Assembly (NCBI GenBank): GCA_946699065.1
Contig: CAMPDV010000291.1
Location: 124,001 to 188,000, forward strand
Source: Loxodes magnus
Taxonomy: Eukaryota > Ciliophora > Karyorelictea > Loxodida > Loxodidae
DNA: 64,000 nucleotides
Reading direction: 5' to 3'
Positions 2 to 63,378 of the stretch are shown here, piece after piece (within the stretch, counting starts at the first letter, position 1; every line of letters begins with the position of its first letter). A model generated the notes under the pieces. That model had not been told where the DNA came from. It made no database searches and saw only the letters and a list, made by a program, of their open reading frames with translations. Made by a program: the position numbers and the translations under genes.

Positions 2-1831
2 AGTGATTCAGAGTTCATCGTATCGGGAAGTTATGATTATACGGTGAGACTATGGGACGTCAAGACAGGTACCTGTAAGACCATGAGTGGTCACACTAGT
101 TGTGTATAAGCTGTGGCTATATCCAGTGATTCAGAGTTCATCGTATCGGGAAGTTATGATTATACGGTGAGACTATGGAACGTCAAGACAGGTACCTGTA
201 AGACCATGAGTGGTCACACTAGTTATGTATATGCTGTGGCTATATCCAGTGATTTAGAGTTCATCGTATCGGGAAGTTATGATTATACGGTGAGACTATG
301 GGACGTCAAGACAGGTACCTGTAAGACCATGAGTGGTCACACTAGTTATGTATCTGCTGTGGCTATATCCAGTGATTCAGAGTTCATCGTATCGGGAAGT
401 TATGATTATACGGTGAGACTATGGGACGTCAAGACAGGTACCTGTAAGACCATGAGTGGTCACACTAGTTGTGTATATGCTGTGGCTATATCCAGTGATT
501 CAGAGTTCATCGTATCGGGAAGTTATGATTATACGGTGAGACTATGGGACGTCAAGACAGGTACCTGTAAGACCATGAGTGGTCACACTAGTCATGTATA
601 AGCTGTGGCTATATCCAGTGATTCAGAGTTCATCGTATCGGGAAGTCATGATTATACGGTGAGACTATGGGACGTCAAGACAGGTACCTGTAAGACCATG
701 AGTGGTCACACTAGTTGTGTATAAGCTGTGGCTATATCCAGTGATTCAGAGTTCATCGTATCGGGAAGTTATGATTATACGGTGAGACTATGGGACGTCA
801 AGACAGGTACCTGTAAGACCATGAGTGGTCACACAAGTCATGTATATGCTGTGGCTATATCCAGTGATTCAGAGTTCATCGTATCGGGAAGTTATGATTA
901 TACGGTGAGACTATGGAACGTCAAGACAGGTACCTGTAAGACCATGAGTGGTCACACTAGTTGTGTATAAGCTGTGGCTATATCCAGTGATTCAGAGTTC
1001 ATCGTATCGGGAAGTTATGATTATACGGTGAGACTATGGAACGTCAAGACAGGTACCTGTAAGACCATGAGTGGTCACACTAGTTGTGTATATGCTGTGG
1101 CTATATCCAGTGATTCAGAGTTCATCGTATCGGGAAGTTATGATTATACGGTGAGACTATGGGACGTCAAGACAGGTACCTGTAAGACCATGAGTGGTCA
1201 CACTAGTTGTGTATATGCTGTGGCTATATCCAGTGATTCAGAGTTCATCGTATCGGGAAGTTATGATTATACGGTGAGACTATGGGACGTCAAGACAGGT
1301 ACCTGTAAGACCATGAGTGGTCACACAAGTCATGTATCTGCTGTGGCTATATCCAGTGATTCAGAGTTCATCGTATCGGGAAGTTATGATTATACGGTGA
1401 GACTATGGGACGTCAAGACAGGTACCTGTAAGACCATGAGTGGTCACACAAGTCATGTATAAGCTGTGGCTATATCCAGTGATTTAGAGTTCATCGTATC
1501 GGGAAGTTATGATTATACGGTGAGACTATGGGACGTCAAGACAGGTACCTGTAAGACCATGAGTGGTCACACTAGTTATGTATATGCTGTGGCTATATCC
1601 AGTGATTCAGAGTTCATCGTATTGGGAAGTAATGATTATACGGTGAGACTATGGAACGTCAAGACAGGTACCTGTAAGACCATGAGTGGTCACACTAGTT
1701 ATGTATCTGCAGTGGCTATATCCAGTGATTCAGAGTTCATCGTATCGGGAAGTCATGATTATACGGTGAGACTATGGAACGTCAAGACAGGTACCTGTAA
1801 GACCATGAGTGGTCACACTAGTTATGTATAA
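2..1831 (+). pseudogene. Left-edge blades with six class A stops
   Basis: About 15 blades are cut by TAA at 107, 599, 722, 968, 1460 and 1829. Open parts are 113-601, 728-970, 974-1462 and 1466-1831, with GTG as first possible start directly after each TAA-gct. Residue 7 is mainly Cys or His and residue 25 mainly Tyr. The last part carries Ser22 to Leu before an Asn25 turn (1622-1624), the first of three copies of that marker. Confidence 0.45.
65..76. repeat. 12-bp perfect palindrome repeated once per unit
   Basis: ACAGGTACCTGT is its own reverse complement and lies over codons 36-39 (Thr-Gly-Thr-Cys). The first copy is listed; it recurs every 123 bp through the window. It is broken only in rare units, such as those with Gly37 to Ser (acaagtacctgt, for example near 18,518, 58,859 and 63,410) or the Cys39 to Phe unit at 2,165. 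No protein binding can be claimed; its conservation may simply follow from the low divergence of the array. Confidence 0.85.
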
Positions 1832-1834
1832 GCT

Positions 1835-2815
1835 GTGGCTATATCCAGTGATTCAGAGTTCATCGTATCGGGAAGTTATGATTATACGGTGAGACTATGG
1901 AACGTCAAGACAGGTACCTGTAAGACCATGAGTGGTCACACTAGTTGTGTATATGCTGTGGCTATATCCAGTGATTCAGAGTTCATCGTATCGGGAAGTT
2001 ATGATTATACGGTGAGACTATGGGACGTCAAGACAGGTACCTGTAAGACCATGAGTGGTCACACTAGTTGTGTATATGCTGTGGCTATATCCAGTGATTC
2101 AGAGTTCATCGTATCGGGAAGTTATGATTATACGGTGAGACTATGGGACGTCAAGACAGGTACCTTTAAGACCATGAGTGGTCACACTACTGTTGTATCA
2201 TCTGTGGCTATATCCAGTGATTTAGAGTTCATCGTATCGGGAAGTTATGATTATACGGTGAGACTATGGGACGTCAAGACAGGTACCTGTAAGACCATGA
2301 GTGGTCACACTAGTTATGTATATGCTGTGGCTATATCCAGTGATTCAGAGTTCATCGTATTGGGAAGTAATGATTATACGGTGAGACTATGGAACGTCAA
2401 GACAGGTACCTGTAAGACCATGAGTGGTCACACTAGTTATGTATCTGCAGTGGCTATATCCAGTGATTCAGAGTTCATCGTATCGGGAAGTCATGATTAT
2501 ACGGTGAGACTATGGAACGTCAAGACAGGTACCTGTAAGACCATGAGTGGTCACACTAGTTGTGTATATGCTGTGGCTATATCCAGTGATTCAGAGTTCA
2601 TCGTATCGGGAAGTTATGATTATACGGTGAGACTATGGGACGTCAAGACAGGTACCTGTAAGACCATGAGTGGTCACACTACTGTTGTATCATCTGTGGC
2701 TATATCCAGTGATTTAGAGTTCATCGTATCGGGAAGTTATGATTATACGGTGAGACTATGGGACGTCAAGACAGGTACCTGTAAGACCATGAGTGGTCAC
2801 ACAAGTCATGTATAA
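1835..2815 (+). CDS. WD40 open stretch, 326 aa, 8 blades
   Basis: This stretch opens after class A TAA 1829 and closes at class A TAA 2813. Blades show Cys7, TTVVSSV and Tyr7 types. It contains the only Cys39 to Phe change (2165-2167) and the second Ser22 to Leu/Asn25 marker (2360-2362). GTG 1835 and internal ATGs of MSGHT are possible starts, but there is no upstream ribosome-site or promoter, because the preceding DNA is array. It is a fragment of the array rather than an independent gene. Confidence 0.35.
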   Translation: [326 protein letters not shown]

Positions 2816-61608: not shown

Positions 61609-61611
61609 GCT

Positions 61612-63378
61612 GTGGCTATATCCAGTGATTCAGAGTTCATCGTATCGGGAAGTTATGATTATACGGTGAGACTATGGAACGTCAAGACAGGTACCTGTAA
61701 GACCATGAGTGGTCACACTAGTTATGTATCTGCTGTGGCTATATCCAGTGATTCAGAGTTCATCGTATCGGGAAGTTATGATTATACGGTGAGACTATGG
61801 AACGTCAAGACAGGTACCTGTAAGACCATGAGTGGTCACACTAGTTGTGTATCTGTTGTGGCTATATCCAGTGATTCAGAGTTCATCGTATCGGGAAGTT
61901 ATGATTATACGGTGAGACTATGGGACGTCAAGACAGGTACCTGTAAGACCATGAGTGGTCACACTACTGTTGTATCATCTGTGGCTATATCCAGTGATTT
62001 AGAGTTCATCGTATCGGGAAGTTATGATTATACGGTGAGACTATGGAACGTCAAGACAGGTACCTGTAAGACCATGAGTGGTCACACTAGTTGTGTATCT
62101 GTTGTGGCTATATCCAGTGATTCAGAGTTCATCGTATCGGGAAGTTATGATTATACGGTGAGACTATGGAACGTCAAGACAGGTACCTGTAAGACCATGA
62201 GTGGTCACACTAGTTATGTATCTGCTGTGGCTATATCCAGTGATTCAGAGTTCATCGTATCGGGAAGTTATGATTATACGGTGAGACTATGGGACGTCAA
62301 GACAGGTACCTGTAAGACCATGAGTGGTCACACTAGTTATGTATCTGCTGTGGCTATATCCAGTGATTCAGAGTTCATCGTATCGGGAAGTTATGATTAT
62401 ACGGTGAGACTATGGGACGTCAAGACAGGTACCTGTAAGACCATGAGTGGTCACACTAGTTGTGTATATGCTGTGGCTATATCCAGTGATTCAGAGTTCA
62501 TCGTATCGGGAAGTTATGATTATACGGTGAGACTATGGAACGTCAAGACAGGTACCTGTAAGACCATGAGTGGTCACACTAGTTGTGTATATGCTGTGGC
62601 TATATCCAGTGATTCAGAGTTCATCGTATCGGGAAGTTAAGATTATACGGTGAGACTATGGAACGTCAAGACAAGTACCTGTAAGACCATGAGTGGTCAC
62701 ACAAGTCATGTATATGCTGTGGCTATATCCAGTGATTTAGAGTTCATCGTATCGGGAAGTAATGATAATACGGTGAGACTATGGGACGTCAAGACAGGTA
62801 CCTGTAAGACCATGAGTGGTCACACTAGTTATGTATATGCTGTGGCTATATCCAGTGATTTAGAGTTCATCGTATCGGGAAGTTATGATTATACGGTGAG
62901 ACTATGGGACGTCAAGACAGGTACCTGTAAGACCATGAGTGGTCACACTAGTTATGTATCTGCTGTGGCTATATCCAGTGATTCAGAGTTCATCGTATCG
63001 GGAAGTTATGATTATACGGTGAGACTATGGGACGTCAAGACAGGTACCTGTAAGACCATGAGTGGTCACACACATTATGTATATGCTGTGGCTATATCCA
63101 GTGATTTAGAGTTCATCGTATCGGGAAGTAATGATTATACGGTGAGACTATGGGACGTCAAGACAGGTACCTGTAAGACCATGAGTGGTCACACTAGTTG
63201 TGTATCTGCTGTGGCTATATCCAGTGATTCAGAGTTCATCGTATCGGGAAGTTATGATTATACGGTGAGACTATGGGACGTCAAGACAGGTACCTGTAAG
63301 ACCATGAGTGGTCACACACATTATGTATATGCTGTGGCTATATCCAGTGATTTAGAGTTCATCGTATCGGGAAGTTAA
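61612..63378 (+). CDS. Two WD40 open stretches, 342 and 242 aa
   Basis: 61612-62640 ends at class E TAA 62638 and has two SVV blades flanking a TTVV blade. 62650-63378 ends at class E TAA 63376 and starts with the Gly37-to-Ser/TSHV blades. They are separated only by that one TAA. Confidence 0.38.

Follow-up and report, generated by a model that had tools for sequence, protein, structure and literature searches.

The window analysed here, the whole stretch of 64,000 nucleotides (nt) from contig CAMPDV010000291.1, consists of about 520 tandem copies of a WD40 unit, and the reading frame of this array carries 132 standard stop codons. We consider it fairly probable that all three stops are sense codons in a giant diversified WD40 array, whatever the meaning of TAA and TAG (hereafter TAR) may be. 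The best explanation, in our tentative judgement, is that TGA means Trp and TAR most likely Gln in a coding WD40 array. The window would then be the interior of a very large coding array of WD40 β-propeller blades, with units homogenised and shuffled by unequal crossing-over and conversion and with the codons of the recognition face (loop codons) kept diverse. The host genome, presumably a eukaryotic nuclear one, would read all three standard stops as sense: TGG to TGA at codon 30 of the unit would be silent, TGA at codons 5 and 23 would give Trp, a residue enriched there in the family, and TAA or TAG at codons 7, 23 and 25 would add a residue choice at hypervariable positions. If all the stops are read as sense, the array is an open frame broken only by a 1-nt deletion.

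Only a few lineages are known to have nuclear codes in which every stop codon has a sense meaning, and how they distinguish termination from reading is an open question. If the explanation above is true, the array would be an extreme natural test, in which more than 100 stops are passed by the ribosome in one message (about 520 units, 132 stops). It would also take diversification of the kind known from the HNWD genes of Podospora to about 25 times the largest WD repeat number reported for fungal NOD-like receptors (NLRs) as of 2014, which was 21 (PMC4986451). If the array is a dead satellite, it would be a warning that amplified coding repeats can mimic recoding.

Structure of the Array

1..64000, forward strand: tandem array of a 123-bp WD40 unit, about 520 copies, running off both ends (Tandem Repeats Finder, TRF, and anchor cutting)
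35018..35024, forward strand: 1-nt deletion, AGTG-TCAC for AGTGGTCAC, which breaks the reading frame (anchor intervals)

The whole window, positions 1-64000, is a single head-to-tail repeat with a period of 123, 520.3 copies and 96% matches according to TRF, and no flank is seen at either end. Cutting at 520 internal anchors gave 519 intervals, 518 of exactly 123 nt and one of 122 nt; all unit counts given here cover the 518 full 123-nt units, the 122-nt unit preceding the deletion being excluded. Each 123-bp unit holds 41 codons, and the 518 units comprise 119 distinct DNA sequences and 109 distinct translations. The consensus unit is a WD40 blade (Pfam PF00400, E value 1.9e-45 for a four-unit query), and the best solved structure by sequence is 2ymu, a WD-40 repeat protein. 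All five other frames of the consensus unit contain at least one stop per unit. The GC content of the window is about 43% (AT 57%).

High internal conservation (HIC) has been defined for repeat proteins as a unit identity above 85% over at least 100 residues (PMC4986451). The array lies above this threshold, with 96% matches in DNA and eight-unit translations that are 89-91% identical. Repeated three-unit windows amount to 38.6%, and the longest repeated block spans 16 units. This block, an exact repeat at 44245 and 56299, about 12 kb apart, would represent a recent segmental duplication within the array.

The deletion near 35021 is the sole length change in the 519 intervals and places the two halves of the window in different frames, so that the "otherwise intact frame" of the preliminary description does not hold throughout. 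The unit that follows (start 35020) reads TGT at codon 1 solely owing to the deletion, which may be a sequencing error. We regard it as unlikely, though conceivable, that the window encodes one protein of more than 21,000 residues, with about 70 or more consecutive WD40 propellers and stops as ordinary letters, which would also widen the choice of residues at the hypervariable recognition codons, i.e., a giant fast-recombining recognition array in a protist without a dedicated stop. For such a protein to be continuous, the 35021 deletion would have to be bypassed or stem from a sequencing error.

When read through with NCBI table 27 (TAR as Gln, TGA as Trp), an eight-unit stretch models as a propeller with a predicted local distance difference test (pLDDT) score of 96.1 and a predicted template modelling (pTM) score of 0.92. 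The model resembles ODA16 (template modelling score, TM, of 0.95) and the eight-bladed designer protein Tako8 (0.89-0.90). A predicted fold of this kind does not discriminate between genetic codes.

In-Frame Stop Codons

In-frame stops number 132 (71 TAA, 17 TAG and 44 TGA) and fall in 124 of the 518 units; the longest stop-free stretch covers 26 units. The preliminary description had the same total, from 107-109 to 63376-63378, and its unit numbering equals ours plus two. These 132 copies are not independent, as they represent eight codon alleles multiplied by recombination: TAA7 (TAA at codon 7; 51 copies), TGA30 (41), TAG25 (17), TAA23 (12), TAA29 (8), and TGA5, TGA21 and TGA23 (one each). 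Their positions are as follows.

107..61608, forward strand: 51 TAA at unit codon 7, a hypervariable codon of the putative recognition face; first 107-109, last 61606-61608
2867..33373, forward strand: 17 TAG at unit codon 25, 16 of the 17 linked to CAT at codon 23; first 2867-2869, last 33371-33373
23279..63378, forward strand: 12 TAA at unit codon 23; first 23279-23281, last 63376-63378
3986..15181, forward strand: 8 TAA at unit codon 29, in two backgrounds only; CTA (Leu) is two substitutions away
18749..54912, forward strand: 41 TGA at unit codon 30, where the remaining 477 units have TGG for the Trp of WD40
51256..51378, forward strand: divergent unit VHKD[TGA]VSSV, with TGA at 51268-51270 (codon 5, a Trp-rich position of the family)
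58390..58512, forward strand: divergent unit SGS[TGA]DKT, with TGA at 58456-58458 (codon 23, Trp-enriched) and the sole AAG at codon 25
21737..21859, forward strand: unit with one TGA (21797-21799, codon 21) in place of the usual Gly; a misfit for Trp
30962..31084, forward strand: unit in which codon 29 (31046-31048) is the sole CAA and codon 30 is TGA

Most stop copies (82/132) lie at the variable codons 5, 7, 23 and 25, and a further 41/132 at the Trp of codon 30. Taken alone, the 82 copies say little; the common TAT at these codons is one step from TAA and TAG. TAT occurs 1340 times in the unit frame and TAC never; the silent TAT to TAC transition is thus not seen, although TAA and TAG occur. 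TGA30 always precedes AAC at codon 31 (41/41) and is restricted to the middle of the window (18749-54912). Because of this linkage and confinement, TGA30 probably arose once and then spread.

TGA in Tryptophan Positions

TGA would best be read as Trp, a meaning that fits well and that came through an independent profile test. The profile was an hmmsearch alignment of 246 hits, with 241 distinct repeats from 20 bacterial loci, and it replaced an earlier strict extraction by regular expression that gave only 32 bacterial repeats. The search was seeded with the consensus of the window, which has no Trp at codons 5, 7 and 23. The log-odds of Trp in this profile are +4.71 at codon 5, +2.56 at codon 23 and +6.44 at codon 30, and -4.64 at codon 21. 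Over codons 5, 23 and 30, Trp sums to +13.7 bits while all other residues are negative; with codon 21 included, the sum is +9.1. The Trp score of the four TGA positions is matched by 215 of 101270 four-codon sets. TAG was not found at codons 5, 23 or 30 in any of the 518 units.

Scoring of the divergent units by the Pfam WD40 model points in the same direction. For the two units at 51256-51501, Trp scored 75.8 bits, ahead of Tyr (74.3), Gln (71.3), Arg (71.1), Gly (70.7), Ser (69.5), Leu (69.2) and Cys (68.9), and for the unit at 58390, where two residues were tried, Trp scored 44.0 and Cys 42.0 bits. Ten residues were also tried in the four units at 51010-51501; at a cut-off of 1e-40, Trp (138.7) and Tyr (136.9) appeared under the WD40 model and Gln under the WDR3 model. 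The rare TGA codons sit in divergent units with other changes, among which D4 and S8 of the TGA5 unit and K25 of the TGA23 unit are common in the family. In the TGA5 unit, codons 1-8 (51256-51279) read GTT CAC AAA GAT TGA GTA TCA TCA, a combination unique among the units, and the remainder is consensus. On sequence grounds, these eight codons may have been brought in by conversion from another WD40 gene.

These results bear on much of what the preliminary description had proposed. It had counted TGA for TGG in 41 units at its Trp32 (our codon 30), a figure that our count confirms, and both of its one-off TGA codons, at HKD-x-V (unit 51256) and SGS-x-DKT (unit 58390), are real and lie at positions enriched for Trp in the bacterial profile. 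Its broader statement that most stops fit the WD40 consensus once recoded has support for TGA5, TGA23 and TGA30 as Trp and for TAG25 as Gln; Gln is not singled out for TAA, and TAA29 and TGA21 fit poorly. It was right to call the change of its Gly23 (codon 21) to TGA not conservative, as the Trp log-odds of -4.64 indicate, and that of its Leu31 (codon 29) to Gln unusual, with no polar residue there in 241 repeats.

Meaning of TAA and TAG

Gln fits TAG; for TAA, many residues score at least as well as Gln, and Tyr scores better. Summed over codons 7, 23 and 25 of the bacterial profile, His reaches 2.8 bits, Asn 2.5, Trp 2.5 (bad at codon 25), Gln 1.76, Tyr 1.55 and Glu -4.0. The log-odds of Gln are +2.14 at the TAG of codon 25, where it is the best residue, consistent with the HDQT reading suggested earlier, and -0.33, -0.06 and -4.65 at the TAA codons 7, 23 and 29. 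For TAA7 and TAA23 together, the profile gives Trp +7.1, Asn 1.6, Tyr 1.1, His 0.8, Ser 0.3 and Gln -0.4, so the parallel suggestion of Gln for TAA at codons 7 and 23 is not singled out by it. TAA29 and TGA21 suit no recoding well in the same profile.

With the Pfam WD40 model, the scores for 2795-3409, with one TAA7 and four TAG25, are Arg 191.6, Asn 191.0, Lys 190.8, Gln 186.6, Ser 183.4, His 182.3, Glu 181.6, Tyr 179.1, Trp 174.6 and Leu 173.8. For 89-1072, with four TAA7, they are Asn 286.4, Tyr 285.3, Arg 284.1, Trp 282.2, Ser 280.3, Leu 279.8, Lys 279.4, Glu 277.6, Gln 277.5 and His 275.1. One TAA23 unit scores best with Trp (39.0) and Tyr (37.7); with Gln it reaches 36.7. Gln codons proper are nearly absent, as had been remarked before: the 518 units contain one CAA, no CAG and 88 TAR. 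CAA as a step toward TAA at codon 29 was considered and rejected; the CAA unit has a different background. The choice of Gln for TAR would rest on precedent in known codes, above all for TAA, rather than on the fit of the array.

It is also conceivable, if improbable, that all stops are sense and TGA is Trp while TAA and/or TAG stand for Tyr, for Glu or for separate meanings. In the Mesodinium-type code, TAA and TAG mean Tyr. For the array, Tyr comes near Gln at codons 7, 23 and 25 and beats it for TAA in both Pfam comparisons, and the change from TAT to TAR would be silent; silent TAC would then be expected too, yet there are 0 TAC against 1340 TAT. Glu has a precedent in Blastocrithidia, where UAR stands for Glu and UGA for Trp, and whose open reading frames (ORFs), at 38.7-46.4% GC, bracket the window (PMC12153298). 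Against Glu stand its -4.0 bits in the profile and the invariant GAG of codon 16 (518/518), where TAG never occurs; Pfam is less clear: Glu is practically level with Gln for TAA7 and falls below it in the TAG-rich stretch. UGA in Blastocrithidia is reported to make up 0.72-0.85% of codons (PMC12153298), against 44 of 21238 codons here. Codes with separate meanings for UAA and UAG are in print, to judge from titles.

Hypervariable Codons

The variable codons form two pairs, 5/7 and 23/25, which bracket V6 and D24, both invariant in 518/518 units. Together these four codons carry 21 codon alleles, a number equalled by 10 of 101270 four-codon sets, and their amino-acid diversity is reached by 12 of 101270; variation is also seen at codons 31, 15, 4 and 8. 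In the HNWD genes of Podospora, positive selection was reported at codons 7, 9, 25 and 27, paired around the purified codons 8 and 26 (PMC1805685, PMC2873952). The variable codons of the array have the same spacing, with an offset of two. In the predicted structure, codon 5 belongs to the loop that leads into the first strand and codon 7 is near the start of that strand, while codons 23 and 25 lie in the loop linking the second and third strands. Because the variable codons match both the HNWD spacing and this predicted placement, we suggest that the array diversified as a binding surface. By analogy with HNWD, it may have a role in recognition.

Sense Codons or Damage

Several observations weigh against a coding array with recoded stops. 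No purifying signal was found, the 45 distinct nucleotide variants being distributed 17/16/12 over codon positions 1/2/3, and the frame is broken once, by the 1-nt deletion. The window offers no flanking gene, tRNA or transcript as evidence, and tRNA and Rfam scans of its 64 kb returned no match. Its GC content of about 43% exceeds the 35% reported for Amoebophrya sp. ex Karlodinium veneficum (hereafter Amoebophrya Kv; PMC12005148). Among ten residues in Pfam WD40, Gln ranks ninth for TAA7 and seventh for TAA23, and the placement of TAR for Gln is equalled by random routes (P = 0.37). TAA29 replaces a core Leu, and TGA21 replaces Gly and fits poorly with Trp or any recoding. With mutational routes taken into account, the placement of TGA has no more than modest significance: when positions are weighted by the copies one step from TGA, three or more out of four would be Trp positions with P = 0.044, or with P = 0.14 without codon 23, which is reachable in one step from no sense codon present. 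At 51010-51501, the WDR5 propeller model lists Tyr without Trp, and in the KD[TGA]V unit the residues V1 and K3 are atypical of the family. Since TAA too is found at Trp-enriched codons, i.e., 7 and 23, the match between TGA and Trp may be due in part to a gathering of stops of any kind at variable codons.

The most serious competitor, which we nevertheless find doubtful, is a dead or dying, still amplifying WD40 satellite under the standard code, formerly coding and diversified, in which point mutations created stops that then multiplied along with the units. There are published cases of recently amplified WD40 propellers that frameshifts and in-frame stops have disrupted (PMC9218822), TAT at codons 5, 7, 23 and 25 is one step from stops, and the missing purifying signal, the single frameshift, the unfitness of TAA29 and TGA21 as sense and the poor fit of TAA to Gln would all be at home in such decay. 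In a neutral simulation, in which codon alleles were grown by random one-step mutation, stop alleles were fewer than in the array: 2.4-3.9 against the eight observed (P 0.0005-0.011), 1.8-2.8 against five with at least two copies (P 0.019-0.10) and 1.6-2.5 against five with at least four copies (P 0.011-0.059). Synonymous alleles were fewer than simulated (5 against 8-11). When backgrounds and neighbour contexts are set against copy number, all the common stop alleles but TAA29 fall on the line of 21 sense alleles (z -0.6 to +0.5); TAA29 has fewer backgrounds than sense alleles of equal copy number (z -2.0). The other four, being mixed to the same degree as sense alleles, seem to date back to the diversification. 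Five stop alleles were amplified and no frameshift was (there is one, unamplified), and core amino-acid changes are hardly commoner in stop-bearing units (10 in 124) than in stop-free ones (27 in 394). A decaying satellite also sits uneasily with codons 5, 23 and 30, which have TGA and never TAG. TAA and TAG as sense are favoured over random damage, with indirect support, because stop alleles exceed the neutral expectation and shuffle like sense alleles.

The array might instead be a silent store, mostly untranslated, that donates units by conversion to an expressed gene elsewhere and tolerates stops. Two units with short blocks unlike the others, pervasive recombination (119 unit types and a longest repeated block of 16 units) and the exchange of units between loci known in Podospora (PMC1805685, PMC2873952) are in keeping with such a store; no expressed partner is visible in the window, and under the standard code an array with stops in 24% of its units would serve poorly as a donor, which makes this explanation very improbable. 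That the stops come from errors of assembly or base calling has a negligible probability. The single-copy TGA21 and the 1-nt deletion could be errors, whereas each of the five common stop alleles is present 8-51 times, on 2-15 backgrounds, and base-calling error was rejected for them, and the TGA5 and TGA23 units have several further changed bases. Repeat-induced point mutation (RIP) was likewise rejected: relative to the most frequent or neighbouring alleles, the common stops are TAT to TAA/TAG and TGG to TGA differences, not C-to-T changes at CpA (CAA and CAG to TAA and TAG; TGG to TAG), and TAG30 does not occur. The CpA/TpA ratio of the array is low (0.67) and RIP-like, yet this is a trait of the whole TAT-rich unit.

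Relatives and Precedents

A close parallel to the array is the HNWD family of Podospora anserina (het-d, het-e and het-r), described as having near-identical WD40 units that are shuffled by recombination and vary at two codon pairs around conserved codons. The sequenced het-e and het-d alleles are reported to have 10-12 units, against about 520 here, and the array differs further in having stops in a quarter of its units and no HET/NACHT part visible within the window. In cyanobacterial WRAP and other repetitive propellers, blades were recently amplified from one blade and some are disrupted by stops or frameshifts (PMC9218822), as in the array; they are described with far fewer units, and their stops are taken as disruption. 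Bacterial WD40 relatives were found at 10 loci in genome contigs (29-50% identity) and in plasmids (47-53% identity among the 15 of 325 records listed). No DNA relative of window positions 1-3000 was found in phages or plasmids. In viral contigs, 13 stretches fit the peptide pattern, none of them encoding a relative, and three DNA patterns were unmatched. Judged from bibliographic entries, three papers combining WD40 with Amoebophrya and three others, one of them on Paramecium with both premature stop codons and WD40 repeats, did not concern such an array, and among the ten listed of 19 papers on recoded taxa none had WD40.

The combination of TAR as Gln and TGA as Trp is reported for Condylostoma and Parduczia (PMC4967479). 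Ciliates, whose codes the preliminary description had invoked, are not the sole candidates: in the dinoflagellate parasite Amoebophrya Kv, TAR is probably Gln and TGA Trp (PMC6394959, PMC12005148), and by analogy this organism would be as good a precedent as the ciliates. Its 3,627 gene models are reported to average 13.6 stops, tRNAs for UAA and UAG were found, and its AT content of 65.2% (PMC12005148) is above the 57% of the window. All these codes were inferred from whole transcriptomes, as reported, whereas here a single array is at hand, with one CAA or CAG against 88 TAR; the Condylostoma code is additionally backed by mass spectra and ribosome profiling, unlike the case of the array. 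Blastocrithidia shares with our preferred reading the use of all three stops as sense and TGA as Trp, at a similar GC content of its ORFs (PMC12153298), and differs from it in reading TAR as Glu, which fits the array badly in the bacterial profile. In the dyneins of Amoebophrya Kv, UGG is favoured over UGA (PMC6394959), and the array is alike in this respect, with 477 TGG and 44 TGA.

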